Source: Desulfovibrionales bacterium (GTDB taxonomy: Bacteria > Desulfobacterota > Desulfovibrionia > Desulfovibrionales > Desulfomicrobiaceae). Taken from it: a stretch of 64,000 nt of DNA. The stretch covers positions 1 to 64,000 of the forward strand of contig JAAYGN010000092.1 in assembly GCA_012727715.1 (NCBI GenBank), in the 5' to 3' direction. The notes under the pieces are model-generated. The model had not been told where the DNA came from and did no database searches. It worked only from the letters and a program-made list of their open reading frames with translations. The stretch's first letter is position 1. Each line of letters begins with the position of its first letter. The position numbers were made by a program, and so were the translations under genes. Shown here one piece after another: positions 7,913 through 53,934 of the stretch.

Positions 7913-8836
7913 ATGTCTCTCGTTATTAATAACAATCTCATGGCCATGAATGCGGCCCGCAATTTGTCCCAAGCATATTCCAGCTTGGCCCTGTCCACCA
8001 ACCGTTTATCTTCTGGTCTGCGCATCACTTCAGCTGCTGATGACGCTGCTGGGCTGGCTATTCGCGAGCTTATGCGTGCCGATATCGCCACCCTGAACCA
8101 GGGTATTCGTAATGCCAATGATGCTATTTCCATGATCCAGACCGCTGATGGTGCTTTACAGGTTATTGATGAAAAGCTCATTCGCATGAAGGAATTGGCA
8201 GAACAGGCCGCTACAGGTACTTACAGTTCGACCCAACGCCTGATCATTGATTCCGAATACCAGCAAATGGCTTCGGAAATCACCCGAATTGCCAATGCCA
8301 CAGATTTTAATGGTATTTATCTTTTAAATGGTGCTCTATCCACATCAGCAACTAATCCTGCTGATTGGGGAGATGATCACGAAGGCTCAGATATTAATTC
8401 CACTGGTCCCCTCAAGGTCCACTTTGGTACTGGCAACTCCTCGGCTGAAGACTACTATTATATTGCCATTGGTGACTCCACAGCCAAGGCTTTGGGAGTA
8501 GGTAATTCACTTGACGATGATCAGCAGGCAGGCTTTTCCATCTCCACTCAGGCTGGTGCCCAGCAAGCTCTGGATGCCATTAATGCAGCCATTACTTCCA
8601 AGGACAATATTCGGGCCAGCTTGGGTGCCATGCAGAACCGTCTGGAAAACACCATCACTAACTTGCAAATCCAGGCTGAGAACTTGCAGGCCGCTGAATC
8701 TCGCATCTCTGATGTGGATGTGGCCACAGAAATGACCCAGTTTGTGCGCAACCAGATCCTGACCCAGGCAGCTGTGGCCATGCTTTCCCAGGCCAACACT
8801 CTGCCCCAAATGGCTTTGCAACTGATGCAAGGATAA
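7913..8836 (+). CDS. fliC: Flagellin
   Basis: SLVINNNLMAMNAARNLSQAYSSLALSTNRLSSGLRITSAADDAAGLAIRE; C-terminal ANTLPQMALQLMQG. Confidence 0.97.
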   Translation: MSLVINNNLMAMNAARNLSQAYSSLALSTNRLSSGLRITSAADDAAGLAIRELMRADIATLNQGIRNANDAISMIQTADGALQVIDEKLIRMKELAEQAATGTYSSTQRLIIDSEYQQMASEITRIANATDFNGIYLLNGALSTSATNPADWGDDHEGSDINSTGPLKVHFGTGNSSAEDYYYIAIGDSTAKALGVGNSLDDDQQAGFSISTQAGAQQALDAINAAITSKDNIRASLGAMQNRLENTITNLQIQAENLQAAESRISDVDVATEMTQFVRNQILTQAAVAMLSQANTLPQMALQLMQG

Positions 8837-8957: not shown

Positions 8958-11027
8958 ATGGCTGACAATATTTCTTCCCTGACCTCATCCCTGACTTCCG
9001 GCTCTATCCACTTTACTGGACTTGGTTCTGGTACAGACTTTGAGTCCATGATCGACAAATTGATGGAAGCAGAGAAAATTCGCACCAAGCGCTTGGAATT
9101 GTGGCGTTCAGAATGGGAAACCAAAAGTGAAGAATTTGATAAGCTTTCCAGAGCCATGCTGGACCTGCACACTACCTTGCAAGGCATGAACACGCCTGAT
9201 GAATTTTTAGTTAAACAGGTCACAGTATCCAATCCCATGGCCTTAACGGCCACAGCCAACAGTATGGCGGAAGAAGCCACCCATGACCTGGAAATTGTTT
9301 CCCTGGCTACCAATGACATGCACATGGGTTCGGCAATTTTTTCCTCGCCTGAGGACAAGATAACCGCTGCTCCTGGTACTTTTTCCTTTGTCTATGGCAA
9401 CCGACAAATAAGTATTGATGTCAATGCGGACACCACCTTGTCCCAATTTGTCAGTCTCATTAATGCCAATGTTGGAAATCGTAACTATGTCCGGGCCAGT
9501 ATTATTAACGATGGCAGCGGTTATCGTCTACAATTACGGGGCATGGATTTGGGTGCAGGCAATAATATTCTTATTGATGATGATCTGACCACCCTGGATG
9601 CTTTCAAGGCCAACCAATTTGTCCAAACCCAACAGGCAAGCAACGCTCAACTGAAGGTTGATGGCTGGCCCAATGTGCCTGAAGCCAGGGCCATGATTCT
9701 TAAGGCCAGCACAACCTATGATACTATAACAGAGACCATAACCACTACCTCAGAAACACTAAAAATGGCCTATGCTGGTCAAATTCATTCCATTACCGTG
9801 GCCGCAAACAGCTCTGTGCAAGATCTCATTGACAGCATTAATACTGAAGTTGGTTTTACCATGGCCTCCACTATCATCAATGATGAAGGCAAAATGGAAT
9901 TACTGCTGACAGGCGAGGCAGGTTCAGCCAACCAAATTTCCATTGTCAATACTCCTGGTACAACTCTTGGCCAATTTCAAAGCACAGCTTTTACTCGTAT
10001 CCAAGGCGCAACAGACGGTTATATTGAGCGACCCACCAACTCCATCTCAGACCTTATTCCTGGTGTAACCATGAATTTGACCAAGGCCGGTGAATCAGTG
10101 ACCTTGGCGGCCAGTGTTGATACCGCAGGAGTTACAGAAAATGTGCGCACCTTTGTCAATAAAATTAACGAAGTACTTAAGCTTATTCAGGACCAGACCA
10201 AAGTGGATACTGTGGGTAAAAATGTTACTGGAGCCATTTTAACAGGCAACTATGGCGTACAAATGATTCAGCAGCGCCTCAAGGGCATTCTGGCCCAAAG
10301 TGGCCTGGGCTTTGACTACCATCTTGATCCCCTGACTTCTTTGGGCAGTGTGGGCATCACTACAGATACATCTCAGGGCTCATTGACCTTTGGGCTTTTG
10401 GTCTTTGATGAAAGTGTTTTTGCCTCTGCTTTGGCCAATGACCCTGATGCTGTGGCTCGTCTTTTTAGCGCAGATTACTATCCCTCTACCCGAGAAATAG
10501 TCAACGGCCAGGCAGTGGAATCATCCAACTTCAGGTTTGATTCGTTTGTACGGGGTGTCACTGGAGCTGGTGATTTCAAAGTTGCTTACTCCATTGAGGG
10601 AGGAGTGATTGTTGCGAGCCCCCCGCCAACCATCAATGGCTATCCAGCACACATAGAGGGAAACAAAATCACAGCCATGGGTGATAACAACCCGGCCAGA
10701 GGCCTGAGTATTGAAATACTCAATCTTGCTGATGGCACATTTTCTGGCCACGCCCAGATCAAATCAGGAAAAACCGAAGAACTTTCCGCAGCCATTAAAA
10801 CTCTGACAGATCCCCAGTCTGGAACTTTGGAAATTTTGAAGAATAATTATCAGGATATTATGGATGCCATTGATGACAAAATTGCCTACGAAGAGCGCCG
10901 CCTGACTCAGCTAGAACGCACTATGCGCCTACGTTTTGCCAACCTGGAAGCATTGCTGGGCAAATATGATGGACTGGCCAAACAGCTGGAATCCCAAATT
11001 AAAGGTCTAAGTAGTAAATCCTCATAA
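8958..11027 (+). CDS. fliD: Flagellar hook-associated protein 2 (filament cap)
   Basis: IHFTGLGSGTDFESMIDKLMEAE; C-terminal coiled coil; sits between fliC and fliS. Confidence 0.94.
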   Translation: MADNISSLTSSLTSGSIHFTGLGSGTDFESMIDKLMEAEKIRTKRLELWRSEWETKSEEFDKLSRAMLDLHTTLQGMNTPDEFLVKQVTVSNPMALTATANSMAEEATHDLEIVSLATNDMHMGSAIFSSPEDKITAAPGTFSFVYGNRQISIDVNADTTLSQFVSLINANVGNRNYVRASIINDGSGYRLQLRGMDLGAGNNILIDDDLTTLDAFKANQFVQTQQASNAQLKVDGWPNVPEARAMILKASTTYDTITETITTTSETLKMAYAGQIHSITVAANSSVQDLIDSINTEVGFTMASTIINDEGKMELLLTGEAGSANQISIVNTPGTTLGQFQSTAFTRIQGATDGYIERPTNSISDLIPGVTMNLTKAGESVTLAASVDTAGVTENVRTFVNKINEVLKLIQDQTKVDTVGKNVTGAILTGNYGVQMIQQRLKGILAQSGLGFDYHLDPLTSLGSVGITTDTSQGSLTFGLLVFDESVFASALANDPDAVARLFSADYYPSTREIVNGQAVESSNFRFDSFVRGVTGAGDFKVAYSIEGGVIVASPPPTINGYPAHIEGNKITAMGDNNPARGLSIEILNLADGTFSGHAQIKSGKTEELSAAIKTLTDPQSGTLEILKNNYQDIMDAIDDKIAYEERRLTQLERTMRLRFANLEALLGKYDGLAKQLESQIKGLSSKSS

Positions 11028-11050: not shown

Positions 11051-11467
11051 ATGCACCGAGCCGCCAATGCCTATATGCAAACCCATGTAATTACCACCAC
11101 TCCCGGCCATTTGGTAGTTATGCTTTATGATGGAGCCATCACCTTTTTAGAACAGGCCAAGGAAGAAATTCAAGCCAAACATTATGACAAAAAGGGGATT
11201 CTTATTTCTCAAGCTCTGGATATTATTGCCGAGTTGGACAGCTCTCTCAATGCTGAAAAAGGCGGGGAGTTGGCCCGTAATCTCCACGCCCTGTACATGT
11301 ACTGCAATACTCGATTGCTCATGGCCAACTTGAAGATGGACACCAGTCTTGTGGACGAGGTTATAAATATCTTGTCCTCCTTTCGCTCTGCCTTTGCGGA
11401 AATTAATAAAGTCCAAATCCCACCCACAATGCAAAATAGTAATACGCCTGCCTATAGCCACTCCTAG
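11051..11467 (+). CDS. fliS: Flagellar export chaperone FliS
   Basis: ANAYMQTHVITTTPGHLVVMLYDGAITFLEQAKE. Confidence 0.95.
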   Translation: MHRAANAYMQTHVITTTPGHLVVMLYDGAITFLEQAKEEIQAKHYDKKGILISQALDIIAELDSSLNAEKGGELARNLHALYMYCNTRLLMANLKMDTSLVDEVINILSSFRSAFAEINKVQIPPTMQNSNTPAYSHS

Positions 11468-11585: not shown

Positions 11586-13460
11586 ATGAGTGGCTTTGCT
11601 GGCTATTGTCATCTTCAAGGGTTACCCCCTTTTCCTGCTGTTCTCCCGGCCATGGCCAAAATCCTTGCCCATCGCGGCCCTGACCATACAGGATTTTTTC
11701 AGGATAGATGCTGCGCTTTGACTGCGTGCGAACAGACCATCATGCATCAAAGAACTGGCCTGACCCAACCCTTTATCCACCCCACATCAGGCCAAGTAAT
11801 TCTTTTTGATGGAGCTCTTTCCAATCTGCAAAAACTTCGTACCGATCTTGTTGCCCGCGGTCATACTTGCGAGTCAGACCAGGAAACTTTGATTGCCGCC
11901 TATAATGAATGGAATGAAACATTTGTTAGCCATATAGACGGTATGTTTGCCCTGGGGCTTTGGGATCCAGGCAAACAGACCCTGCTCCTAGCTCGGGACC
12001 GGCTTGGCCAAAAACCTCTTTTTTACTGCGCTTTGCCAGACAATACCTTGATTTTTGCCTCGGAAATCAAAGCAATCCTTTGTTTTCCAGGGGTCAGTCG
12101 TACCTTTAACGCCTTGGCCATGGACCGACTTTTGGACTTTGGCTTTAATCTCGCACCCTCAACATTTTTAGAAAGTGTCCAGCAACTCATGCCTGGCCAT
12201 ACTCTAACTCATAATTTCCAAGGCTCAAAAATCAGATGTTATTGGCAACTTTCACCTGTCAGCCAAACTATACAGACACAACAGGCTGCTGAAGGGCTCT
12301 ATGACCACCTGATGCAGGCCACCAAAAATTGTCTGATGGCAGACCAACCCATTGCTGCATATTTAAGTGGAGGCATTGATTCCAGTGCTGTGGCCGCTAT
12401 GTATGCTCTGCAAACAAAAGAACCTGTAAACACCTTGTCCATTACCTTTGAGGAAGCTGATTACGATGAACGTCATTTTGCCCGCCTGGTCTCCCAAGTC
12501 TTTAACACCAAACATCACGAATTTATCTGCACCATTGATGAAAAAGAAATTGAAAACCTCATTTGGTTTTTAGAAACCCCTTTGGTGACTCTACTTAATC
12601 TGCCTTTGTATTTATTGTCTCGCCAAATAAAAGAAATGGGCTTTTCCATAGTTCTTTCCGGAGACGGAGCTGATGAAATTCTTGGGGGCTACAGCTATTT
12701 CAAAATACTAAAAGCCATGAATTTTATTGGGCACCACGAATCCCCCACCAGAGCAAATCTTTTGCGCCGTATCTGGCCGGATTTGGGCAATCAAGATCAG
12801 GCCTGGATGCGCTACCGTATGCTCAAAAACTTTCCCATAACGCATCCGGCACTGCCCTATCGCTGGCAGACCTTTCAGTTCAAAGGACAGTTGTTATCCG
12901 ACACATTTTTGGAAAAACTGGCCTTGCACCAAAATGTACGCCAAAATGAACTGCCCATAATCCCCACTCAGCTGTCTTTGCTCGATCAGGCCCTTTATTT
13001 TGAAACGACCATGCGCCTGCCCAATCTAACCCTTGCGTTGGCAGATACCATGAGCATGGCCAACTCCGTACAATTGCGTTCCCCATTTATGGATCATCGC
13101 CTTGTGGAATATCTTTTTTCAATTCCCGGACATCTCAAAATGCGTGGGCTCAATGAAAAATTTTTACTCAAACGTGCCTTGAAAAATTTTCTACCCCAAG
13201 AAATCTGTACCCGTCCCAAGCAACCTCTGGCACCACCTGGAAAATGGTTTGTCAAAAAATTCCGTACCTTGATCGGAGATATACTTTCCTATCAGAATGT
13301 GCAGGCCAAAGGCTATTTTCGACCAGAATTTATGGAATATATCCTCAAAGAATTCGACCACAATAGCCCCATGGATTATAGTGGGGTGATTATTGTTGCC
13401 TTTTTTGTCCACCTTTTTGACCACCTGTTCCTCTCCTCCCCTCAGGGGTTTAGTTGCTAA
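11586..13460 (+). CDS. AsnB-family (asparagine synthetase-like) protein with degenerate glutaminase active site
   Basis: MSGFAGYC N-terminus (Ser at the catalytic Cys position), HRGPDHTG, SGGIDSSAVAAMYA PP-loop, VLSGDGADEILGGY. Confidence 0.88.
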   Translation: MSGFAGYCHLQGLPPFPAVLPAMAKILAHRGPDHTGFFQDRCCALTACEQTIMHQRTGLTQPFIHPTSGQVILFDGALSNLQKLRTDLVARGHTCESDQETLIAAYNEWNETFVSHIDGMFALGLWDPGKQTLLLARDRLGQKPLFYCALPDNTLIFASEIKAILCFPGVSRTFNALAMDRLLDFGFNLAPSTFLESVQQLMPGHTLTHNFQGSKIRCYWQLSPVSQTIQTQQAAEGLYDHLMQATKNCLMADQPIAAYLSGGIDSSAVAAMYALQTKEPVNTLSITFEEADYDERHFARLVSQVFNTKHHEFICTIDEKEIENLIWFLETPLVTLLNLPLYLLSRQIKEMGFSIVLSGDGADEILGGYSYFKILKAMNFIGHHESPTRANLLRRIWPDLGNQDQAWMRYRMLKNFPITHPALPYRWQTFQFKGQLLSDTFLEKLALHQNVRQNELPIIPTQLSLLDQALYFETTMRLPNLTLALADTMSMANSVQLRSPFMDHRLVEYLFSIPGHLKMRGLNEKFLLKRALKNFLPQEICTRPKQPLAPPGKWFVKKFRTLIGDILSYQNVQAKGYFRPEFMEYILKEFDHNSPMDYSGVIIVAFFVHLFDHLFLSSPQGFSC

Positions 13461-13501: not shown

Positions 13502-14413
13502 ATGTCACCCATGAAGATCACCTGTCCCAATTGCGGCTTTGCTCGCGATGTTGACGAAAAGAACCTGCCACCCAAAGCCGTTATGGCCACCTGTCCCAAG
13601 TGCAAACACCGCTTCAAATTTCGAGAGAGTACTCCTGCTTTTTTGGCAGAAGAACCAATCGCCCCAAAAGAAACTGGCCAGGAACATGAGGCTACCCCAA
13701 CCTTGGAGCCCACTCCTCCACAATCTCCAATACAAGAAGAGCCTCCAGGGGATTTATGGAGTGAACTGGAAGCTCTAAATGAGACAACTTCTGGTGAAAG
13801 TAACCAAGCAGCCGAATCTCAAGAACCAGCCCTCCCCCTTTGGGAACGGGTGGATTCAGGCTACGCCACTGCTTTTGTGCAGACCATCTTGGATATGTTC
13901 AAAAACCCCAGGCATTTTTTTTCCAGTATGCCCATGGGACATGGGTATATTAAACCCCTGATTTTTTTTCTGATCATTATTGAAGCTGTGGCCATATCAC
14001 AGGCCTTATGGCAAGTGCTGGGGATTTTACCCCCAAGTTTTTTTGCAGAAAGTATGCACCAAAGCTTTCAAACCCTAATCGCCCTTGTCCTTTATCCATT
14101 GCAAGTTATTATTTTTCTTTTTGTGGATACAGCTATTTGTTTTAGTTTTTTGCGTTTATTCAAAGCTGATACCAAGGGCTTTGAAGGCACCTTTAGGGCT
14201 GAAGTATATAGTTCTGTCCCCATGTTGCTCATGATCATTCCCCATATTGGACTCCCCTTAGCCATGATTGGGGTTACAGTGTACAAATTCTTGGGGCTCA
14301 AACACATTCATGGCGCAAGCTCTAAGCAAGTTATCTCGGTTATGATTTTGCCTATGCTCATTGCCATGGCTGTGGCTATTTTATTAATTTTGCTCACCCA
14401 AAACCATGTATAA
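13502..14413 (+). CDS. Zinc-ribbon (MJ0042-type) protein with C-terminal Yip1-like membrane domain
   Basis: MKITCPNCGF...ATCPKCKHRFKF plus several hydrophobic TM segments. Confidence 0.75.
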   Translation: MSPMKITCPNCGFARDVDEKNLPPKAVMATCPKCKHRFKFRESTPAFLAEEPIAPKETGQEHEATPTLEPTPPQSPIQEEPPGDLWSELEALNETTSGESNQAAESQEPALPLWERVDSGYATAFVQTILDMFKNPRHFFSSMPMGHGYIKPLIFFLIIIEAVAISQALWQVLGILPPSFFAESMHQSFQTLIALVLYPLQVIIFLFVDTAICFSFLRLFKADTKGFEGTFRAEVYSSVPMLLMIIPHIGLPLAMIGVTVYKFLGLKHIHGASSKQVISVMILPMLIAMAVAILLILLTQNHV

Positions 14414-14571: not shown

Positions 14572-15765
14572 ATGATCGGTATTTCAAAATTGTATTGCGG
14601 CACAGTGGAACCTTCTGATGCTCTGCGCTATGGACGCCACTCCTCCCAACTTCCTTCCCATTTGCTGCAATTTGCCAAGGATAAAAAACCTGTTGTGGTC
14701 TGGAACATGACCCAGCGCTGTAACTTAAAATGCGTCCATTGCTATGCTCACGCTGTTGAACCAAGCAAACACAAGGATCCTATTTCCACAGATCAGGCTA
14801 AAACCATTATAGATGATTTGGCCCAATTTGGCGCACCAGTCATGCTTTTTTCTGGTGGTGAACCCCTGGTACGCGAAGATCTGGTGGAACTGGCCAAATA
14901 CGCTACCTCCAAAGGTATGCGCGCAGTTATTTCCACCAATGGTACCCTTATTACCAAGGCCAAAGCCAGAGAACTGAAAGAAGTAGGCCTGTCCTATGTG
15001 GGTATTTCTTTGGACGGATCCGAAGCAGTGCATGACCAGTTTCGGGCTGTTTCCGGGGCGTATAAACTGGCGCTGAAAGGTGTGGAAAACTGCCAGGCCG
15101 AAGGCCTTAAAGTAGGCTTACGGTTTACCATCAGCAAACGTAATGCCCAGGAAGTGCCCCACCTTTTTGATCTTGTTGAACAACTGGAAGTGCCGCGTAT
15201 CTGTTTTTATCACTTGGTATATTCCGGTCGTGGCTCAGAACTCATCAAAGAGGATCTGGACCATGGGGAAACCCGAGCCGTGGTGGACCTGATCATGAAC
15301 CGTACCCGTGATTTGCATGATCGAGGCAAACCCAAGGAAGTTTTGACTGTGGATAACCACGCTGACGGCCCTTATGTGTATTATCGTTTGCTCAAGGAAG
15401 ATCCGAAACGTGCGGCAGATGTGCTGGAACTTTTGAAAATGAACGAAGGTAATTCGTCAGGCCGAGGCATTGGTTGCATTTCCTGGGACGGCGCAGTCCA
15501 TGCTGACCAGTTCATGCGTCATATTACTTTTGGCAATGTCCTGGAACGACCATTTTCTGAAATCTGGGTCGATGAAAACATTGAGCTGTTACACAAGCTC
15601 AAAGACAAACGCCCCCATGTCCAAGGCCGCTGTGCTACCTGTCGTTTTTTAAATATTTGTGGTGGCAATTTCAGGGCCCGCGCTGAAGCCTATTATGATG
15701 ATTTTTGGGCTCACGACCCAGCCTGCTACCTGACGGATGAAGAGATCAGCGGTGAGCCCCTGTAG
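14572..15765 (+). CDS. ahbC: Radical SAM 12,18-didecarboxysiroheme deacetylase AhbC
   Basis: NMTQRCNLKCVHCYAHAVEP, C-terminal CATCRFLNICGGNFRARAEA; upstream of hemB and ahbD. Confidence 0.87.
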   Translation: MIGISKLYCGTVEPSDALRYGRHSSQLPSHLLQFAKDKKPVVVWNMTQRCNLKCVHCYAHAVEPSKHKDPISTDQAKTIIDDLAQFGAPVMLFSGGEPLVREDLVELAKYATSKGMRAVISTNGTLITKAKARELKEVGLSYVGISLDGSEAVHDQFRAVSGAYKLALKGVENCQAEGLKVGLRFTISKRNAQEVPHLFDLVEQLEVPRICFYHLVYSGRGSELIKEDLDHGETRAVVDLIMNRTRDLHDRGKPKEVLTVDNHADGPYVYYRLLKEDPKRAADVLELLKMNEGNSSGRGIGCISWDGAVHADQFMRHITFGNVLERPFSEIWVDENIELLHKLKDKRPHVQGRCATCRFLNICGGNFRARAEAYYDDFWAHDPACYLTDEEISGEPL

Positions 15766-15774
15766 GAGAATGTG

Positions 15775-16755
15775 ATGGAAAACTTTTATCGTGGCCGTCG
15801 CCTGCGTTCATCTTCAGCCCTGCGCGACATGGTCCGAGAAACAAAGGTTTCAGCCGCAGATCTGATTCAGCCATATTTTGTAGTCGAGATTGATCCCAAC
15901 TATAAAAAACCTATTTCGTCCATGCCAGGCCAATTCCAATTGGGCCTTAGTGCACTCATGGCTGAAGTGGAGCTGGCAGTAAACGCAGGACTTAAAAGCC
16001 TGATCCTCTTTGGTATTCCCAATGAAAAAGATCCTGTAGGCTCCGGAGCCTATGCTGAAGATGGTATTGTACAGCAAGCCATCCGTCGCATCAAAAAGAA
16101 ATGGCCAGAGCTGGTAGTGGTGGCAGACACCTGTTTGTGTGAATATACTTCCCACGGCCATTGTGGCCTGGTTTCCTCCACTGGCGAAGTGCAAAATGAC
16201 CCCACCCTGGAACTTTTGGCCCGCACTGCCCTGGCCCAGGCCCAGGCTGGAGCAGATATCATCGCTCCTTCGGACATGATGGATGGCCGGGTAGCGGCCA
16301 TTCGCCAGGCCCTGGATGCCAATGGTTTTATCCAGACGCCCATTATGTCCTATGCGGTAAAGTATGCCTCATCCTTTTACGGTCCCTTTCGAGAGGCTGC
16401 TGAAAGTGCCCCGCAATTTGGTGACCGCAAAACCTATCAAATGGATCCGGCAAATTGGCGGGAAGCCTTACGTGAAGCAGCGGCGGATGTAGATGAAGGC
16501 GCAGATATGCTCATGGTCAAACCAGGGCTGCCTTACCTGGATATTATCCGTTTGGTGCGTGACAATTTTGATCTGCCCGTGGCTGCCTACCAGGTCAGTG
16601 GAGAATACAGTCAAATCAAGGCCGCAGGACAATTGGGCTGGATTGATGAAACCTTGGTGGCTCTGGAAAGCCTGGTGGCCTTGAAACGGGCTGGGGCTGA
16701 TCTGATCTTGTCCTACTTTTCTCAAGATTTACTTAAGGCAGGACATATCTCATGA
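15775..16755 (+). CDS. hemB: Porphobilinogen synthase
   Basis: [17 protein letters not shown] ... [13 protein letters not shown] ... [15 protein letters not shown]. Confidence 0.97.
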
Positions 16756-17915
16756 CCCACCATCATCACCACAATAGCAAATCCGGGGCAGAAAATAATC
16801 TTGATTTTGGACATCCAAGAAAACATCCAGGTGGCATGGTTACTACCCTGGAAGATGGCAGTCCGGCCTGTAGGCTCATTGCCTGGGAAGTGACCAGATC
16901 ATGTAATCTGGCCTGTAAACATTGTCGGGCCGAAGCCCACCTGGAACCCTACGCAGGTGAACTGAGCACGCCTGAGGCCAAGGCCCTTATTGACACCTTT
17001 CCTCAAGTTGGAAATCCCATCATCATTTTTACTGGTGGGGATCCCATGATGCGCCCGGATGTGTATGAGCTGATGCGCTATGCCACAGACAAGGGCCTGC
17101 GTTGTGTCATGTCTCCCAATGGTACCCTGATTACCGAAGAAACAGCACAAAAGATCCAAGAAGCTGGTGTGCAGCGTTGCTCCATCTCCATTGATGGACC
17201 AGATGCCGCCAGCCATGACGAGTTTCGTGGTGTGCCTGGAGCCTTTGATGCGTCCATGCGTGGTATTGAGCTGCTCAAAAATGCTGGTCTGGAATTTCAG
17301 ATCAATACCACTGTAACCCGGGCCAACTTGGGCAGTTTCAAGCAGATTTTTGATTTGTGCGAGCGCATTGGTGCTGCGGCCTGGCATATTTTTTTACTGG
17401 TGCCTACGGGCCGGGCTGCCCAATTGGGAGCTGAAGTCATTACGGCCCAGGAATATGAAGAGGTCCTCAACTGGTTTTATGATTTTCGTAAAACCACCAA
17501 TATGCACTTAAAAGCCACCTGTGCCCCCCATTATTATCGCATTATGCGCCAACGAGCCAGAAAAGAAGGACTGGCCGTCACCCCGGAAAATTTTGGTCTG
17601 GATGCCATGACCAGGGGTTGCCTTGGAGGCACGGGATTTTGTTTTATTTCCCATGTGGGCCAAGTCCAGCCATGTGGATATCTGGAATTGGATTGCGGCA
17701 ATATACGCACCACACCATTTCCGGAAATCTGGCGCAATTCCAAGCAATTTCAGCAATTCCGTACCCAAAGTGACTATGAGGGCAAGTGTGGTATTTGCGA
17801 GTACCACAAAGTTTGCGGCGGATGTCGCGCCAGAGCCTACACCATGAATGATAATTATATGGCTGAAGAACCTCTGTGTTCCTATACGCCCAGACGCACA
17901 GCCAAGACTTCTTAA
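16752..17915 (+). CDS. ahbD: Radical SAM heme b synthase AhbD
   Basis: [52 protein letters not shown]-terminal MTHHHHHN. Confidence 0.87.
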
Positions 17916-17927
17916 GGCAGGGATACT

Positions 17928-18389
17928 ATGGACGATTATGATAGAAAGATTTTGGATATCATTCAAACCAACTTTCCCCTGGAATCCAGACCCTATGCAC
18001 AAGTTGGTCACCAAATAGGACTCACAGAAGCAGAAACCTTGGCCCGTGTACGTGCTTTGACAGAAAAAGGTGTTATTCGACGCATAGGAGCCAATTTTCA
18101 AACAACTAAAATTGGCTTTCATTCAACCCTATGTGCTGCTTCTGTGCCTGAAGAAAAAATTGACCTCTTTGTTGACCTGGTAAACCAACTTCCTGGTGTA
18201 ACTCATAATTACCTGCGCGCTCACCACCAAAATGTCTGGTTTACCCTCATTGGCCCAACAAAAGAACATGTTCGGAATACCCTGGCTGAAATTACCCAAA
18301 AAACCGGCATTGGGATCTTAAATCTACCCACCATAAAAATGTTCAAGATCAAGGTGGATTTTAAAATGGATGACCAGGAGGAAGACTAA
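17928..18389 (+). CDS. Siroheme decarboxylase subunit (AhbA/AhbB, Lrp-like fold)
   Basis: VIRRIGANFQTTKIGFHSTLCAA ... GVTHNYLRAHHQNVWFTLIG; downstream of ahbD. Confidence 0.85.
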   Translation: MDDYDRKILDIIQTNFPLESRPYAQVGHQIGLTEAETLARVRALTEKGVIRRIGANFQTTKIGFHSTLCAASVPEEKIDLFVDLVNQLPGVTHNYLRAHHQNVWFTLIGPTKEHVRNTLAEITQKTGIGILNLPTIKMFKIKVDFKMDDQEED

Positions 18390-19048
18390 TGCGTGAGCTT
18401 ATCCTTTCTCCATCTCTGCTTTCTGCGGATTTTGGCAACTTACGTGCAGAACTGGCTACCCTGGAAGAAGCGGGTCTCAAATGGGTACACTGGGATGTTA
18501 TGGACGGTCTTTTTGTGCCCAACATCACCTTTGGGCCACCCGTAATCAAGGCTCTGCGCAAAACATCCAGACTTTTTTTTGATGTCCACCTTATGATTGA
18601 ACGGCCGGAACGCTATATCCAGGAATTTGCCGAAGCCGGGGCTGATCTCCTGTGCGTCCACGCTGAAAGCACCCTGCATTTGGAGCGAACCTTAAGCGCT
18701 ATCAGGGATAATGGGATGCAGGTTGGCTTGTCTCTGAACCCAGGTACACCCCTAAATATTTTGGAATATGTTTTACCCCAGCTGGATATGGTCCTGATCA
18801 TGAGTGTTAACCCGGGCTTTGGGGGCCAGTCCTTTATTCCCTTTTGTCGAGAAAAAATTTGTGATCTCAAAAATATGATCCAGAAAAAAAATCTGTCCAC
18901 CCTAATCCAGGTAGATGGCGGGGTCACCCTGGACAATGCCCGAGAACTTTTTGAATTGGGTGCCGATATTTTGGTTTCTGGATCAGCTTTTTTTGGCTTT
19001 CCACCTTATAATAAAAGACATCAGGCCTTTTTGGAAGCTGTCGCCTAA
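18389..19048 (+). CDS. rpe: Ribulose-phosphate 3-epimerase
   Basis: LSPSLLSADFGNL ... WVHWDVMDGLFVPNITFGPPV ... MSVNPGFGGQSFI. Confidence 0.96.
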   Translation: MRELILSPSLLSADFGNLRAELATLEEAGLKWVHWDVMDGLFVPNITFGPPVIKALRKTSRLFFDVHLMIERPERYIQEFAEAGADLLCVHAESTLHLERTLSAIRDNGMQVGLSLNPGTPLNILEYVLPQLDMVLIMSVNPGFGGQSFIPFCREKICDLKNMIQKKNLSTLIQVDGGVTLDNARELFELGADILVSGSAFFGFPPYNKRHQAFLEAVA

Positions 19049-19162
19049 GCTCCAAACCATATTTAAGCACGTACTCCTGACTCACGGTTTCCCAAGCATA
19101 CCCAATGTATTGTCCATGAATTCTTTACCATGACCTGGCAAAAATTGAGAAATGCATTCTAA

Positions 19163-19191
19163 TCGTCAATGACTATAAACTGCATTGACGA
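19163..19191. promoter_or_regulatory. Perfect 9-bp inverted repeat overlapping a TATAAA box; candidate operator
   Basis: TCGTCAATG-actataaactg-CATTGACGA, about 45 nt upstream of the Lrp gene. Confidence 0.55.
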
Positions 19192-19236
19192 CACTGGTTA
19201 TATGAAATATATCTTGCAACCAAGAGGGCACCTATC

Positions 19237-19710
19237 ATGTTAGACAAAATTGATATCAAAATACTGAATATTCTTCAAACACAGGGCAAAATTACCAATG
19301 CGGATTTGTCTCGTCAGCTGGATATGGCTCCATCTGGAGTGTTGGCTCGAGTCAAAAAATTGGAACAAGACAATATTATTCAGGCCTATGATGTTCGCCT
19401 CAATCCCAAGGCTTTGGGATTATCCTTATCCACCTTTATCCTCATTAAAACACAAGATTCTGTGGGCAGCGCAGAAATAGGACGCCAGCTTGCAGGTATT
19501 TCCGAAGTTCAAGAGGTCCATTGGATTGCTGGTGAATATAATTACCTGGTTAAAGCACGAGTCAGTGGCACAGAAGCCTTGACTCTGCTCATGAAAAAAT
19601 TTGGTGAGCTTTCCGGGGTGTGTGATACTCGAACCACCCTTGTCCTAGACACCATCAAAGAATCTCAAGCAGTCTGCCTCGACTATGCTCAAACGAAAAC
19701 CAAAAAATAA
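19237..19710 (+). CDS. Lrp/AsnC-family transcriptional regulator
   Basis: LDKIDIKILNILQTQGKITNADLSRQLDMAPSGVLARVKKLE ... RTTLVLDTIKES. Confidence 0.9.
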   Translation: MLDKIDIKILNILQTQGKITNADLSRQLDMAPSGVLARVKKLEQDNIIQAYDVRLNPKALGLSLSTFILIKTQDSVGSAEIGRQLAGISEVQEVHWIAGEYNYLVKARVSGTEALTLLMKKFGELSGVCDTRTTLVLDTIKESQAVCLDYAQTKTKK

Positions 19711-46363: not shown

Positions 46364-48247
46364 TTAATGCAAAACACATGAACTCGCATTGGGCGCATAC
46401 TCCGGCACTATATTGGACAATTGGCATCTAATATCCTCAGCTTGGAACCTCTCGGCCAAACCAATCAGTGTCTTGATATCCTTAAAAAAATTTGCCTGTA
46501 CTGCCCCTTCAGAACTTCGTAAAACCATGATCAAATCATGTCCGGTTTCCAACACATCCTCACCCTCGGTAATCAGTTCCTCATATAATTTTTCGCCAGG
46601 TCGCAATCCAATGAATTTTATACCAATATCCGCTGGATCCCGACCAGACAAAAGGATCAAATCCCGAGCCAAGTCAGCAATACGTATTGGCTGACCCATT
46701 TTAAGCAAAAACACTTCTCCGCCCTGTCCTTGAGCCCCTGCCTGAACAATAAGTTGGGCAGCTTCAGGTATGGTCATAAAATATCGCGTTACTTCTGGGT
46801 CTGTCACAGTTACTGGGCCACCACGCTCAATTTGGCTGCGAAAAAGTGGAATGACTGATCCCGACGATCCCAGCACATTCCCAAAGCGTACCGCCATAAA
46901 TATGGTTTTTCCTCCTGTTAGCCCCAGCATAATCTTTTCTGCTACACGCTTGGAAGCACCCATAACATTGGTGGGACGTACAGCTTTATCCGTGGATACC
47001 AACACAAAACGCTGCACGTCATATTCTACAGACAATTCCATGACCACTTGTGAACCAAGAATATTATTGGTCACGGCCTGCCAGGGATTAAGCTCCAGCA
47101 TAGGTACGTGCTTATATGCCGCAGCATGAAAAACAACTGCTGGCTGATACTGCTGAAATACTGCATCCATGAGCACACGATCTTGTACTTGTCCCAATAC
47201 AGCCCGGTATGAAGAAAAATCTATCTGGTGTAAAAGCTCCATTTCCATGGAGTAAAGATTTTCCTCTCCAGCATCCACCATCACCAGCAGTCCGGGCTTA
47301 AAACGAACAATCTGACGACAGAGTTCCGACCCAATAGACCCTCCAGCTCCAGTAACCAAAACCACTTTATCTTGAAGATATTCCTCAATACCTGGAATAT
47401 CGAGATGTATTTCCGAACGGCCCAATAAATCTTCATAACGTACATCTGCCAAAGCCTTAATGCTCACCCGACCGCTCACTATATCCTGCAGGGCGGGCAT
47501 TTTTTTCAATCTAACCCGGGCAGATTCACACATAGTTATAACTTCACGTAGCTGACTTCCTTGCGATCCAGCAGCATTGATGAGTACCTCGTCAATGGCC
47601 ATCTCCTGAATCAAATGCGGCAGACGGGATACAGGCCCATATATAGGCAGACCATGAATACGACGACCAATACGCACCGCATCATCATCAACAAAGCCAG
47701 CCAATTCAAAATTATTGCCTCCCGGCCCCATCATTTCCCGGGCCAGGCGTGCACCAATGTCATCAGCCCCAACAATCAAAGCCCGATATCTGGAGCCATG
47801 CCCAACTCCTGCCTTTGAAGATGGGTACATGGCCTCATAGGCGATACGAATAAAAATACGTGCCCCACTGGCCAAAAGAAAGGTCAAAAGAAAATCAAGA
47901 ATAAAGACTGATCTGGGAAAACCCTGAAACTGGGTGGTCAAGGCAATATAAGCAACCAAAATACATTCAGACAAGATCGCTGCACTGCCAATACGCCACA
48001 AGTCGCTTAGACCTGTATAGCGCCACATGCCCCGATACAGGCCAAAAGCACCAAAACAAACCAGTTTACACGTCACAGCTACAGGCAAAATCTCCAGCAT
48101 GGAGCCCAAAAACATATCTGGAATTTCAAACTCAAAACGAAGGCCATAGGCACTGATAAGCGCCAGAGCAAACAACCCAGCTTCACCCACAATCATGACA
48201 TAAAAATTTTTATTCTTAAAAAGCTGGGAAGGTGAAAAGGCACTCAT
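46364..48247 (-). CDS. Membrane-bound nucleoside-diphosphate-sugar 4,6-dehydratase (CapD/WbpM/PglF family)
   Basis: N-terminal TM region; VLVTGAGGSIGSELCRQIVRF; FHAAAYKHVPMLELNP; VSTDKAVRPTNVMGASKRVAE. Confidence 0.92.
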   Translation of the reverse strand: MSAFSPSQLFKNKNFYVMIVGEAGLFALALISAYGLRFEFEIPDMFLGSMLEILPVAVTCKLVCFGAFGLYRGMWRYTGLSDLWRIGSAAILSECILVAYIALTTQFQGFPRSVFILDFLLTFLLASGARIFIRIAYEAMYPSSKAGVGHGSRYRALIVGADDIGARLAREMMGPGGNNFELAGFVDDDAVRIGRRIHGLPIYGPVSRLPHLIQEMAIDEVLINAAGSQGSQLREVITMCESARVRLKKMPALQDIVSGRVSIKALADVRYEDLLGRSEIHLDIPGIEEYLQDKVVLVTGAGGSIGSELCRQIVRFKPGLLVMVDAGEENLYSMEMELLHQIDFSSYRAVLGQVQDRVLMDAVFQQYQPAVVFHAAAYKHVPMLELNPWQAVTNNILGSQVVMELSVEYDVQRFVLVSTDKAVRPTNVMGASKRVAEKIMLGLTGGKTIFMAVRFGNVLGSSGSVIPLFRSQIERGGPVTVTDPEVTRYFMTIPEAAQLIVQAGAQGQGGEVFLLKMGQPIRIADLARDLILLSGRDPADIGIKFIGLRPGEKLYEELITEGEDVLETGHDLIMVLRSSEGAVQANFFKDIKTLIGLAERFQAEDIRCQLSNIVPEYAPNASSCVLH

Positions 48248-48313
48248 GAGATATCCTTCTAAATTCTATGGACCTATTGTATGAAGCACTAAATGACAGC
48301 AAACACCACAGGC

Positions 48314-49492
48314 TTACATACGAGTTGCAGCACTCATGACCTTGGTGACCACAGCTACGACCTGCTCCATATCTTCAGCGTTCAAAGTCGGATGTACCAA
48401 AAAAAGCAAACTGCGCTGCCCAAGGTTGGCGGCCACAGGTAGCGGTTTTTTTGGACTCAAGCCAGTGCGCATAAAAGCCTGTTCTCGATAAATTTCCGGG
48501 CAAATTCCAGCCAGGCAAGGTACACCAGCAGACCGAATTTCTGCAACGATTCGGTCCCGATCCCAACCTTGAGCCAATGTCGAGAGATCCACAGAAAGAT
48601 AAAATTTATAATAGGCATGGAAAAAATCCTGGCCTGGGACCTGGATGTCCATTCCAGACAAATACTTCAGCCCATTGATCAGGATCTGGGCATTTGCCCG
48701 GCGCTGGGTCACCCATTGGTCCAGCTTGGACAATTGGATACGGCCAATGGCCGCCTGCATCTCGGTCATGCGCCAATTGGTGCCAAAGGATTCATGGACA
48801 AAACGAAATCCACTCCCAATATGGGGTGTATGCATGAGGGTCCAGCTCTTGCCATGGTCCTTATAGGCCCAGGCCCGCTCAAAAGCTGTCTGGTCATCCA
48901 CAAGCAGCATGCCCCCTTCACCCCCGGTGGTCATGATCTTGTCCTGACAAAAGGAAAAGGCTGCCGCATGTCCCAAAGAACCAACAGGTCTGCCTTTATA
49001 TTGGGCACCATGGGCCTGGGCGCAATCTTCAATAACAATGAGATCATGCTCCCTGGCGAGGTCCATAATGGGGTCCATGTCACAGGGCCAACCCACCAGA
49101 TGCACGCAAATAATAGCTTTGGTGCGTGGGGTCAGGACCTGGGCAATGGTTTGGGCGGTGATATTACGTGAAATAGGATCCACATCAGCCAGCACCGGAC
49201 GCGCTCCCCGAGCCACCACACAGCTGGCTGAAGCAATAAATGTCCAGCATGAGGTAATGACCTCATCCCCTGGCTCAATGCCAAAAGCCTCCAGTGCCAA
49301 TTCCAGAGCCACAGTGCCATTGGCCAAGCTGATAGCCTGATTCCGTCCTACATAGGCGGCAAATTCCTGTTCAAAAAGCCGACATTCCTGACCTGTCCAA
49401 TAATTGACCTGGCCTGAGGCCAGGACACGCTCCACTGCCTCGCGTTCGTCTGGGGAAAAAACTGGCCAAGGGGGGAAAGAAGTATTTAGCAT
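48314..49492 (-). CDS. DegT/DnrJ/EryC1/StrS (PglE-like) sugar aminotransferase
   Basis: NGTVALELALEAFGIEPGDEVITSCWTFIASA; VIEDCAQAHGA; SFCQDKIMTTGGEGGML. Confidence 0.92.
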   Translation of the reverse strand: MLNTSFPPWPVFSPDEREAVERVLASGQVNYWTGQECRLFEQEFAAYVGRNQAISLANGTVALELALEAFGIEPGDEVITSCWTFIASASCVVARGARPVLADVDPISRNITAQTIAQVLTPRTKAIICVHLVGWPCDMDPIMDLAREHDLIVIEDCAQAHGAQYKGRPVGSLGHAAAFSFCQDKIMTTGGEGGMLLVDDQTAFERAWAYKDHGKSWTLMHTPHIGSGFRFVHESFGTNWRMTEMQAAIGRIQLSKLDQWVTQRRANAQILINGLKYLSGMDIQVPGQDFFHAYYKFYLSVDLSTLAQGWDRDRIVAEIRSAGVPCLAGICPEIYREQAFMRTGLSPKKPLPVAANLGQRSLLFLVHPTLNAEDMEQVVAVVTKVMSAATRM

Positions 49493-50148
49493 ATGAAATC
49501 CTCTAAATCAGAAAACCGATCTATCCAAAGCCCTGGATGACAAACAGGATCTACTTTACATTGAGTATGAATATTTTGGCCAGCATCACGCACCCCGATA
49601 GTTTGCCAACCCAATTGATTGGGTGCTAAAAAATCTTTTTTGGGATTGTCTGCGACATAAATAAAGGTGCAACCCAGAAAATCTTGCATGACTTGATGAA
49701 ATCTCAAGGGATCAGGTTTGGATCGCCCAGCCCATTCTTCTGAAATATAGGCAGGCAAATGTGCCAGTCCCAGGGCCTTAAGTTTTAAACGTTGAGAAAT
49801 GGACCTACCATCCGTAAGTATAGCCAAGGCAGCGGATTTTTCCTGCAACTTGCACAAAGTTGTCCTTACGTCTTCAGACAATTTGATACACGGCATATGC
49901 AAACGATAAGCCCATAAAAGTGATTCCTTGACCGACATCTCAAGGCGTAAATGTTGAACAAGCCGGCCCAAAAAATCTGTTTCTCCTTGTTCCCTCCAAA
50001 GTTTCATCTCTGCCAAAAGATCTTGACCATATAAAGAGATAACAAGTTGCGATACATGGTTGATGCCGGATTCCACATAAGCTGCTTCCGGGTACAATGT
50101 ATCATCCAAATCAAGGACAACGCAGGTTTTTTTATCAATCCGGAACAT
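49486..50148 (-). CDS. HAD-superfamily hydrolase
   Basis: VVLDLDDTLYPEAAYV; ILTDGRSISQRLKLKALGL; FIYVADNPKKDF. Confidence 0.88.
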   Translation of the reverse strand: MFRIDKKTCVVLDLDDTLYPEAAYVESGINHVSQLVISLYGQDLLAEMKLWREQGETDFLGRLVQHLRLEMSVKESLLWAYRLHMPCIKLSEDVRTTLCKLQEKSAALAILTDGRSISQRLKLKALGLAHLPAYISEEWAGRSKPDPLRFHQVMQDFLGCTFIYVADNPKKDFLAPNQLGWQTIGVRDAGQNIHTQCKVDPVCHPGLWIDRFSDLEDFIC

Positions 50149-51094
50149 GAACGACTACCTTGGCGTCATAGCGGAGCATCAAAAGATTTTCTGTCCAATC
50201 TTCAAATTTCCCTATTTCTTGCTGAAGAAAATACTCTCTGACCAGCCAATCTGGATAGTCAGCTCCAGCAGCTGAACTTAGTGGAAATCCGCCTCCAAAA
50301 CGTGGATTGATCTCAAGACCTTTAATGTCTCCTGATTGGGGGTTTCCAAAAACTTGAATGGTGCAGCAACCACGAAAACCCTTGAGTTTAGACAGTCGCG
50401 GCCATAAAAACTCATAGACAAAATGTTTACGCGTAATGCCTTTACTGACCTCTCCTGCCCGAACTTCTATACGTTCACGGGGAACCAGACATTGCAAAGT
50501 TCCATACCGATCATAATACCCATCAACTGTATATTCCTTATATTCTGGACCTATGAACTCCATAAAAATATTTTTTTCATTAGCAAGCATGTTATGGGTT
50601 AATTCATTTTTACCTCTGATTATGGCTGTCCCAATACTGCTACTGCCATCATAAGGCTTGCAAAAACATGGAAAAGTCAGAGAAGATCGCGCATAAATTG
50701 TTGGATAAGGTATATCTATGGATTGAAAGAGCTGACCTGTTTTCCTTTTGTCACGACAAGACATAACCAGGTCACACGAGGAAATAAGTACGATGATGCC
50801 ATCTCGGGCAAAGTCCTCGCGCAAGGAACATAGGACTGGAAGTTCTGTATCTATAGTAGGAATAACAAGTCGGACTTGTTGATCAAGGCAAAGCTTGTGC
50901 AATGCTTGGGCATATCCGCCAGAAGTCACTCGAGGTAACGTAAAATGGCCATCAGCCACATGACAGGCCGCGGACCATTGCGGTACAGCGTCCGCGGCCA
51001 AAACTTTTCCATCAAGACCATGATTAATCATGGCTGTTTGAAAATTTTTTAACAACTCAACTCGACGGCCGGCAGAGAGTATAAGAATATTCAT
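50135..51094 (-). CDS. ATP-grasp domain protein (CarB/PylC-like carboxylate-amine ligase)
   Basis: MNILILSAGRRVELLKNF; CKPYDGSSSIGTAIIRGKNEL; EYTVDGYYDRYG; GLEINPRFGGGFPLSSAAGADYP. Confidence 0.87.
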   Translation of the reverse strand: MNILILSAGRRVELLKNFQTAMINHGLDGKVLAADAVPQWSAACHVADGHFTLPRVTSGGYAQALHKLCLDQQVRLVIPTIDTELPVLCSLREDFARDGIIVLISSCDLVMSCRDKRKTGQLFQSIDIPYPTIYARSSLTFPCFCKPYDGSSSIGTAIIRGKNELTHNMLANEKNIFMEFIGPEYKEYTVDGYYDRYGTLQCLVPRERIEVRAGEVSKGITRKHFVYEFLWPRLSKLKGFRGCCTIQVFGNPQSGDIKGLEINPRFGGGFPLSSAAGADYPDWLVREYFLQQEIGKFEDWTENLLMLRYDAKVVVHVPD

Positions 51095-51693
51095 GAGCTT
51101 TTGTCCTTGGTCCCTGTAAACTTGGGCATGGTTGCTTCACCTGCCGCATTAATACCTTCCCGCCCTAAGACCGCCTTGATGGTCAACCATAAAATCTTCA
51201 GATCTAACGCCATACTTTGATTATCCACATACCAAAGATCAAGATTAAACTTTTCTTCCCAACTTAAGGCATTGCGACCATTGACTTGAGCCCAGCCCGT
51301 AATTCCTGGTCGAACTTCGTGACGCCGGGCCTGTTCTTTGGAATACAGAGGCAGATATTCCATAAGTAACGGCCTTGGTCCCACCAACGACATATCTCCT
51401 TTGAGCACATTCCAAAGTTCCGGCAGTTCATCCAAAGATGTGGATCGCAAAAAACGCCCCCAAGCTGTCAAACGCTGGGCATCGGGCAAGGGCTGCCCGG
51501 CTGCGTTTTTCACATCACGCATGGTTCTAAATTTAAACATGGTAAAAGGTTGTCCATGCAGACCCGGACGAACTTGGGTAAAAAATACTGGCGCCCCCAG
51601 AACCAGGCGTATTATCAGAGTGATGATCAGCAACAAGGGCGCAAAAAAACATAATGCCAATAAGGAAACAACAATGTCAAAACCGCGCTTCAT
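51091..51693 (-). CDS. Undecaprenyl-phosphate sugar transferase (PglC-like initiating phosphoglycosyltransferase)
   Basis: MKRGFDIVVSLLALCFFAPLLLIITLIIRL; FKFRTMRD; LPELWNVLKGDMSLVGPRPLL; RPGITGWAQVNGRNALSWEEKF. Confidence 0.93.
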   Translation of the reverse strand: MKRGFDIVVSLLALCFFAPLLLIITLIIRLVLGAPVFFTQVRPGLHGQPFTMFKFRTMRDVKNAAGQPLPDAQRLTAWGRFLRSTSLDELPELWNVLKGDMSLVGPRPLLMEYLPLYSKEQARRHEVRPGITGWAQVNGRNALSWEEKFNLDLWYVDNQSMALDLKILWLTIKAVLGREGINAAGEATMPKFTGTKDKSS

Positions 51694-51696
51694 AAC

Positions 51697-53934
51697 CTAG
51701 TTAGCCTTATAAACCCGAACCCATGGGTAGAGGTCATCGACCAATTCAAAGTGAGGATTAAAAGAATCAGGATCAGCAATGAGCATCTGCACCATCAAGG
51801 AATCATACATCTTTTTTTCCATAAGATAAGCTTGATTGGCCAACCTATTGATAAGTAAATGCAATCCCGAACCATTGGGCCATGTGGTGTACTCCCGAGC
51901 ATTGTCAGCCTCAAGAATATCCAAAGAATCAACGGGGATTTGTTGACCTTGCACGAGTATCACCCCTGTTTCTTGGTCCACACTAAACTGACCTGACATC
52001 AAATGCATCCGGCCTGGTGCACCTTGCCCGGTTATTAAATCCCAATGACCATAAAAACTGATCCAATAGGATAACCGAAAATTTTCCCAGGAAACCACAA
52101 AATACTGATCTGGCAAATCAGCATCCAGGATCAGAGGTGCTGAAGACAAAGAGTCCACAAAACGAGTAGCCTCTTCTGGCCCCATGTCTTCCAGAGTGGC
52201 GACAGGGTTGGACCAATAATATTTTTTTGGAAGAACCTGGTCGTCTTCAAGCTGCTGAACATCATTGCTCTGGGATTCTGCACCCAATGCCTTGGCTTGC
52301 ACGGCTGCATCTCGTTGTACCTGGGTTACATATTTCATGAGTTGGCTGGCCAGCATGGGTGAGGAGGTACTATGAATTTTGGCCAGGGGATAAAGCCAGG
52401 GACCATCGTGAGCCCCTCCATCGGCAAAAGTAAGGCGCTCGGCATAGTATTGTCCGGCATAGCCATAATCCCACCACTGCCATAACCTGGAGTCAGGCTT
52501 GGTTTTTTCACGCAGATCTAAAAAAGCCTGGGCATAGACATTAGGCAGCACAGGAATGGGACTGGTGTTTTGCATAAATTTACCCATAGGCCAAAATACA
52601 GCCACGCATAAAATAAGCTGGGCAATCCAGCGTCGTCCCTGAGATTGTCCCAAAAGTCGCATCACTTCAGCCAGGCCCAGACCAAACCCTGCACCCAGGG
52701 CCACGCCGCCAAACATGGCAAAACGATTGCCCAATTGCACACTGGCTATACTCAAACCTAAAAAGGGTAAAAATAAAAGGAGTTGTGGCCGACGATACAC
52801 AGCAAAAAAATAGAAGCCCAAGCCCAGAAAGAAAAGATAGCCATGTCCGGTCATGCGCATGGCCAAATCAGCCCAGGGCACGTTTTGTGCTTCGCGCACG
52901 CTTTGGGTAATACCGGGCAATTTCAGAGCTGAAACACGAACCTCTTCAGTCACATTTTTACTATAGCCAACAATGGCCTGGCCATAAGTCAAAACCTTGG
53001 TATGTAGCCCAGCATAAATAAAAATCACAAGCGCGGCCAAAGTAAAAATAAGCCATCCATTACGCTGTTTCCACAAATTCGGTTTGATCCAAAATATTGC
53101 TCCCAGGCCCAAGACAGCCCCCAGACCAACCAAACCACCATAGGTCAGGGCATAAACCATAAGTAGGCCTACCCAAAGTTCCACCCATTTTTGGGGAGGA
53201 GTCAAAACCAGGGATAAAAGAGCAGCCATACCCAAAACAGCAAGGAGAATGCTACCACTTTGGGGATAAAAAAACATGCTCAAAAATCCGCAAATTCCTG
53301 TAAGAGCCAGCATAACCAAAGACCAAGATTGTTTGGACTCAGCTAAAAGTGCATCCGGTCTCCAGGATTCTCTGGTTTGAGTAGTGATCCAGACCACCAA
53401 AGCGCAAACAAAAGCAACAGGAAATAACAGGGCAACCAAATCTGTGTCACAAAAGCCCAGCCGGGTACGGGCCAGAAAACCAATGCTCGACGCAGCCAGT
53501 ACAGAAAATAGCACCCCACCTTCGGTCAGCCGCATAAACCTGGCCAAAAGACAAGCAGGTACAGCAACCCAGGGGATCAGCAGGACCGGAAGCCAAAAAC
53601 CAATAATACCTAAAGAAAGTCCGGTTATGACATGCAACCAGCGAATAATTCCAGTAAAGGCCCAGTGCACATAGCTGCCCACACCTTTGGCTCCAGCCAG
53701 CCAGGCATAAGCGTCATGAGTGGCCATAAGCGGCTCCCCACCAATCCAATAGGCGTCATGCTGCCAGGGGCCGTATTCAATGAGGCGAAGGGCGGCATTA
53801 AGAAAAAAAGCCAGCCCCAGGGCCAAAAAAAATTCTCCCTTTTCTCCCAACTCCCAAAAAGTATCCGGCCCAAGCAAAGAAGATGCTGGTTTCTCATCCG
53901 TACTGGATTGAGGATTCTTCCTGTTTTCTGCCAT
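51697..53934 (-). CDS. Oligosaccharyltransferase, STT3/PglB family
   Basis: Multi-TM N-terminus with THDAYAWLAGAK and GFCDTDLVALLFP acidic motifs; soluble C-terminus with LWQWWDYGYAGQYYAERLTFADGG (WWDYG). Confidence 0.92.
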   Translation of the reverse strand: MAENRKNPQSSTDEKPASSLLGPDTFWELGEKGEFFLALGLAFFLNAALRLIEYGPWQHDAYWIGGEPLMATHDAYAWLAGAKGVGSYVHWAFTGIIRWLHVITGLSLGIIGFWLPVLLIPWVAVPACLLARFMRLTEGGVLFSVLAASSIGFLARTRLGFCDTDLVALLFPVAFVCALVVWITTQTRESWRPDALLAESKQSWSLVMLALTGICGFLSMFFYPQSGSILLAVLGMAALLSLVLTPPQKWVELWVGLLMVYALTYGGLVGLGAVLGLGAIFWIKPNLWKQRNGWLIFTLAALVIFIYAGLHTKVLTYGQAIVGYSKNVTEEVRVSALKLPGITQSVREAQNVPWADLAMRMTGHGYLFFLGLGFYFFAVYRRPQLLLFLPFLGLSIASVQLGNRFAMFGGVALGAGFGLGLAEVMRLLGQSQGRRWIAQLILCVAVFWPMGKFMQNTSPIPVLPNVYAQAFLDLREKTKPDSRLWQWWDYGYAGQYYAERLTFADGGAHDGPWLYPLAKIHSTSSPMLASQLMKYVTQVQRDAAVQAKALGAESQSNDVQQLEDDQVLPKKYYWSNPVATLEDMGPEEATRFVDSLSSAPLILDADLPDQYFVVSWENFRLSYWISFYGHWDLITGQGAPGRMHLMSGQFSVDQETGVILVQGQQIPVDSLDILEADNAREYTTWPNGSGLHLLINRLANQAYLMEKKMYDSLMVQMLIADPDSFNPHFELVDDLYPWVRVYKAN

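Follow-up and report, generated by a model that had tools for sequence, protein, structure and literature searches.

What does an AsnB-family protein do once its glutamine site has been taken apart, and from which source would it then draw its nitrogen? This question is raised by a gene lying behind fliS in the window, that is, the whole stretch of 64,000 nucleotides of contig JAAYGN010000092.1 analyzed here. The window comes from a fragmented assembly (G000; 2.53 Mb, 92% complete, 271 contigs), which we infer to be a member of Desulfomicrobium. The 624-aa product of the gene (Table 1) matches the profiles PF00733 (Asn_synthase, E=6e-79) and GATase_7 (E=6e-30), and its score against TIGR01536 (NCBIfam) is 385 bits, above the curated cut-off of 267. 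Directly after Met, where the N-terminal catalytic Cys was sought, Ser2 was found. The reading frame opens with ATG AGT GGC (MSGFAG), just 3' of a ribosome-site-like AAGGA stretch. Because this start is aligned exactly with the start of MCGIAG orthologs, Ser2 is not due to a mis-called start, and the original prediction that Ser stands in place of Cys was borne out.

Table 1. The asnB gene, its protein domains and other features of the window.
Feature	Position	Strand	Basis
fliC flagellin, upstream neighbor conserved with asnB	7913..8836	+	neighborhood comparison
fliD	8958..11027	+	neighborhood comparison
fliS, directly 5' of asnB in 18/18 orthologous loci; 118-bp gap in the window	11051..11467	+	
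AsnB-family protein, 624 aa; glutaminase site dismantled N-terminally, synthetase site intact C-terminally	11586..13460	+	ORF, profile matches, alignment
Class II (Ntn) glutaminase-type domain, residues 1-215, N-terminal, fold retained	11586..12230	+	alignment, model
ATP-PPase (synthetase) domain, residues 216-624, C-terminal	12231..13457	+	alignment; residue list PMC3885529
Zinc-ribbon and Yip1 membrane protein, 3' of asnB	13502..14413	+	
Siroheme-dependent heme pathway genes	14572-19710		
Pgl-like cluster: CapD/PglF-type dehydratase, DegT aminotransferase, HAD hydrolase, PylC-like ATP-grasp ligase, PglC-type sugar transferase, STT3/PglB oligosaccharyltransferase	46364-53934	-	
Fic-domain protein with C-terminal winged helix	61302-62378	-	

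The asnB site behind fliS

Close orthologs of asnB were found in 18 of 348 genomes of the order; 15 of these belong to Desulfomicrobium, which is represented by 16 genomes, and three to a sister genus. All 18 carry the gene directly 3' of fliS in the fliC-fliD-fliS block (the contig of G003 begins within fliD, and fliC was not seen there). Cys2 and the NGEIYN segment are present in 16 of the orthologs and lost in two, the window protein and that of G010, these being the only two Ser-type genomes found in the collections searched. Codon 2 is AGT in the window and AGC in G010, compared with TGC in relatives, and both reading frames are intact (624 and 626 codons). Linkage to fliS is thus conserved throughout, and the Ser-type genes occupy the ancestral locus, whereas Ser2 is confined to these two proteins. 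Another Desulfomicrobium genome, G008, has the order dxr-rseP-tsaB-fliC-fliD-fliS-zinc ribbon-ahbC and no asnB, with 224 bp between fliS and the zinc-ribbon gene (L165, G008:C48, between 7487 and 7263). In G017, from a third genus, the zinc-ribbon gene also directly follows fliS and asnB is absent. Altogether, one site exists in three states in Desulfomicrobium: intact (13 genomes), disarmed (2) and absent (1).

Among other features of the window, the heme pathway genes presumably run, judging by sequence resemblance, in the order ahbC-type radical SAM, hemB, ahbD-type radical SAM and two AhbA/B-like regulators flanking rpe. The Pgl-like cluster likely serves bacterial N-glycosylation, and the ATP-grasp enzyme in it may act as a sugar-modifying amide ligase.

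The glutamine site and the synthetase site

In the glutaminase domain of the window protein, Ser2, Glu49, Gln50, Met53, Asp75 and Ala77 replace Cys, Arg, Leu, Ile, Asn and Glu. FDGALSN stands where FNGEIYN is usual, and the predicted alteration of this segment, including its oxyanion Asn (Asn75 to Asp) and its Glu (Glu77 to Ala), was therefore correct. Two further losses had escaped the original prediction, as had the existence of a second genome with the same syndrome. Arg49-Leu50, part of a conserved R-R-L motif, has become E-Q, and Glu496, which belongs to the synthetase domain and faces the glutamine pocket, has become Gln. Glu496 aligns with Glu-414 of human ASNS, described as 'absolutely conserved' and lying <5 A from the glutamine pocket (PMC6748925), and as belonging to the network by which the tunnel gate Arg-142 is kept open (PMC11615228). 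The gate position itself is retained as Lys143 in the window protein. At position 142, which corresponds to the human tunnel residue Val-141, the orthologs have Lys and both Ser-type proteins Gln. Of the glutamine-binding set of Arg, Asn, Glu and Asp (PMC3885529; PMC6748925), the window protein has lost Arg49, Asn75 and Glu77 and retained Asp98.

Across 89 outside AsnB homologs, Cys2, Arg49, Leu50, Asn75, Glu77 and Glu496 show no variation wherever they are aligned; no conclusion is based on the E. coli AsnB row of this alignment. At these positions the window protein reads S, E, Q, D, A, Q and the G010 protein S, R, E, D, C, Q, so that six of six and five of six, respectively, have been lost; both proteins keep Gly76 and Asp98. 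Judged from the alignment, the combined loss is far beyond chance, because these six positions never vary in the outside homologs. Its concentration was assessed over the columns that do not vary among the 16 Cys-bearing orthologs, with eight glutamine-site columns (the human hydrogen-bond network plus Glu-414, from the literature) that were picked after the alignment had been seen. The changes affect 6/8 of these columns versus 26/223 others in the window protein (Fisher p=1e-4) and 5/8 versus 31/223 in the G010 protein (p=0.003). Within the glutaminase domain alone, concentration at the active site gives p=0.011 for the window and p=0.094, not significant, for G010. By domain, glutaminase versus synthetase, 21/79 versus 12/153 invariant columns are changed in the window protein and 23/79 versus 14/153 in the G010 protein (p=2e-4 for each).

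A sequencing or assembly error, or a wrong start, might be suspected since AGT is one base from TGT and the assembly consists of 271 contigs, but six catalytic positions have changed together, the start agrees with the orthologs, and the same syndrome recurs, with AGC, in the independent genome G010. The probability of such an artefact is negligible. The presence of Cys2 in close orthologs, true for 16 of 18, had been named beforehand as the mark of a point mutation or sequencing error; on the aligned sequences the Ser-type state is neither, because six residues are co-changed and G010 independently shows nearly the same set.

Some other Ntn hydrolases use Ser as nucleophile. Ser2 might accordingly still work in a rearranged site that hydrolyzes glutamine or another amide, as would fit the occurrence of Ser, not an inert residue, in both genomes and the retention of Gly76 and Asp98. 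However, the oxyanion Asn75 is Asp, Glu77 is Ala or Cys, Glu496 is Gln, and Arg49-Leu50 is gone in the window protein, as is Leu50 in G010; moreover, a change from Cys to Ser takes one base, so Ser needs no special reason. A working Ser2 is thus highly improbable, and the window protein has almost certainly lost glutamine hydrolysis, as far as its residues tell.

The synthetase site presents the opposite picture. Its catalytic residues as listed for AsnH (PMC3885529), Ser261, Asp265, Ser266, Gly359, Asp363, Lys525 and Lys545, are all retained in the window protein, with 0/7 changed there and 0/7 in G010. The PP-loop SGGIDSSA and the SGDGADE motif are intact, as had been predicted, and the protein, an AsnB-type N-type ATP pyrophosphatase, has likely kept its adenylation chemistry. 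The basic residue that contacts the aspartyl carboxylate in simulations of the human enzyme (Arg-403; PMC11615228) was sought and Leu485 was found, in the window protein and in all orthologs; outside homologs have Gln (73), Lys (15) or Leu (1). As a separate observation, the substitution R249C (window codon 12330-12332) is common to both Ser-type proteins, with Arg in 82, Gln in 6 and Cys in 1 of the outside homologs.

An AlphaFold model of the window protein (mean pLDDT 78) has the full two-domain AsnB fold, and its best structural matches in the PDB are the hydroxyamidotransferase TsnB9 (7YLZ), E. coli AsnB and human ASNS. The Cys-bearing G015 protein, modeled as a control, gave a similar result. 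Disorder of loop 51-60 was considered as a sign of damage and set aside, the G015 loop being similarly uncertain (block pLDDT 53 vs 40). Compared with AsnB/ASNS (E. coli 1CT9, human 6GQ3; TIGR01536), the window protein is alike in two-domain architecture, PP-loop, SGDGADE-type acidic cluster, Lys525/Lys545 and fold. It differs in having no catalytic Cys, Arg49, Asn75, Glu77 or Glu496, and in having Leu485 where the E. coli and human enzymes have Arg and some homologs Lys. With its Cys-bearing syntenic orthologs (identity 59-62% within the genus and about 48% to those of the sister genus), it has in common the post-fliS locus and the synthetase catalytic set; the whole glutamine site is theirs and is gone in the window protein. 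TsnB9 is its best PDB match by sequence as well as by fold, and its reported name implies a fold able to accept nitrogen from a donor besides ammonia, but TsnB9 keeps Cys at position 2 and is only about 22% identical to the window protein.

Rates of change and origin of the Ser-type proteins

Branch lengths (window/G010) are shortest in the flanking genes (0.25/0.29), longer in the synthetase domain (0.52/0.63) and longest in the glutaminase domain (1.07/1.54). Between the two genomes, synonymous sites are saturated, and raw pN proportions were therefore used instead of dN/dS ratios (0.37 for the glutaminase domain, 0.28 for the synthetase domain). Because pN is low while synonymous sites are saturated, the sequences indicate that both domains of the Ser-type AsnB are still constrained and that the gene is not a free-running pseudogene.

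These rates bear on the possibility of slow decay, in which a dispensable gene lost its glutaminase first and now encodes an enzyme with little or no activity left. Both domains are indeed accelerated relative to the flanking genes, G008 has its zinc-ribbon gene directly after fliS without asnB, and Asn is obtainable without AsnB (GlnRS, GatB and an AspRS with RRDHGG; see below). However, intact frames persist in two diverged genomes, non-synonymous change is far below saturated synonymous change in both domains, and all seven synthetase catalytic residues are intact, with changes that are concentrated, not random. Slow decay is thus unlikely.

The window and G010 proteins have identical derived states at Ser2, Asp75, Gln142, Cys249 and Gln496. 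A sister relationship of the two is not rejected by trees (p-AU 0.3) and is weakly favored (support 51/70 and 68/59); G010, an independent genome, is probably, but not firmly, sister to the window genome, and by sequence a single loss event likely lies behind both. Part of the divergence may be older than the loss. The Cys-bearing G004 (L014) likewise has a fast-evolving glutaminase domain (branch length 0.62 vs 0.18 for the flanks), with its catalytic residues intact; G004 groups with G008 (support 82/61).

Nitrogen source and acceptor

Ammonia-dependent amidation, with the glutaminase domain kept as a scaffold, appears to be the most likely outcome of these changes, and is held with moderate confidence. 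Following the presumed removal of Met1, Ser2 in a site deprived of Asn75, Glu77 and Arg49 could not support glutaminase chemistry; the C-terminal domain would adenylate a carboxylate acceptor, which would then take free ammonia (cytosolic NH4+/NH3) to give the amide. C1A and C1-deletion mutations disrupt the glutamine step (PMC6342913), and free ammonia has been argued to have direct access to the synthetase site (PMC11615228). The NAD synthetase family, with its single-domain ammonia-dependent and its glutamine-dependent forms (PMC3376133), is a precedent for glutamine-using and ammonia-using members of one family. There, however, the glutaminase is of an unrelated nitrilase type and is absent in the ammonia form, while in the window AsnB the domain is kept and disarmed. 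Loss of the glutamine-binding residues after loss of the Cys would relieve inhibition by glutamine, a possible reason for the coordinated changes. In engineered human Cys-1 mutants, bound glutamine reportedly inhibits the ammonia reaction via an abortive complex (Sheng 1993).

Several points speak against the ammonia reading. No sequence feature marks ammonia use, and the nucleophile could be another amine. The rate of change of the synthetase domain is about double that of the flanks, and Cys249 and Gln496 lie in this domain, whose chemistry may therefore be altered or weaker. Moreover, asnB is dispensable, because G008, which lost or lacks the gene, has the locus without it.

If another amine were the nucleophile, the adenylated acid would be coupled to it within the molecule or from a second substrate, as in beta-lactam synthetase (1JGT) and carbapenam synthetase (1Q15), which have the AsnB fold and a glutaminase half that no longer functions. 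These precedents, which lost the Cys and changed reaction, are both among the structural matches of the model, and the synthetase-domain changes R249C and E496Q are common to the window and G010 proteins. However, both precedents rank lower in that list than TsnB9 and AsnB. The motif of beta-lactam synthetase is SGYGSD, with the Tyr of a catalytic dyad; the window protein has Asp360 at that place in SGDGADE, in agreement with its Cys-bearing orthologs. A biosynthetic cluster, such as an antibiotic biosynthesis neighborhood, was sought around asnB, and flagellin and heme genes were found. No sign of the beta-lactam synthetase-like route raised by the original prediction was thus seen, and a new nucleophile is decidedly improbable. 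For the reaction and role proposed there, loss of the glutaminase is strongly supported and free ammonia is the best-supported nitrogen source; a role in flagellin or glycan modification is a possibility suggested by gene linkage, and G008 lacks asnB at the same locus.

As to the acceptor, AsnB need not serve protein synthesis, since by analogy with Bdellovibrio, where Asn is made on tRNA (PMC4206432), Asn could be made on tRNA without it. GlnRS is encoded in 16/16 genomes, as is GatB (in G010 as a fragment only). AspRS carries RRDHGG, which we take to be the mark of a non-discriminating AspRS. AsnA is absent from all 16 genomes, which rules it out as a replacement, and a second AsnB as backup was found in G010 and not in G000. 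Loss of AsnRS in G000 was also discounted: asnS was not found, but in relatives it lies behind priA, and the priA of G000 is cut off by a contig end. For G015, the apparent absence of asnS falls at a masked run of 5000 N, and for G009 it probably has the same cause. In several genomes, including the 100%-complete G012, the syntenic AsnB is the sole AsnB-type enzyme.

A non-aspartate acceptor is therefore plausible for the whole syntenic family, because Leu485 replaces Arg/Lys, a route to Asn exists on tRNA, and this is the sole AsnB-type enzyme of several genomes. The window enzyme, whose acceptor may thus be other than free aspartate, probably has that of its Cys-bearing orthologs. Each of the 18 orthologs lies at the flagellin locus, but in G008 and G017 this locus is present without asnB, and no relevant literature on asparagine and flagella in Desulfomicrobium was found. 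AsnB relatives elsewhere amidate peptidoglycan (PMC3885529), and by analogy peptidoglycan would be no less likely an acceptor than flagellin glycan. The full scenario, in which conversion to ammonia dependence at the same locus removed the glutamine-binding residues of both domains under selection against jamming by glutamine, in an enzyme acting on a non-aspartate, flagellum-linked acceptor, is quite unlikely.

Annotation by profile would name the window protein 'glutamine-hydrolyzing', as its TIGR01536 score is above the cut-off, and would very probably be wrong. Asparagine synthetases with engineered Cys mutations have long served in studies of the production and transport of ammonia, and here a natural counterpart is found at one locus in one genus. 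Together, the intact and disarmed orthologs could be used to test whether lost glutamine binding relieves the inhibition of a Cys-less enzyme by glutamine, and could show how a class II amidotransferase switches its nitrogen source.
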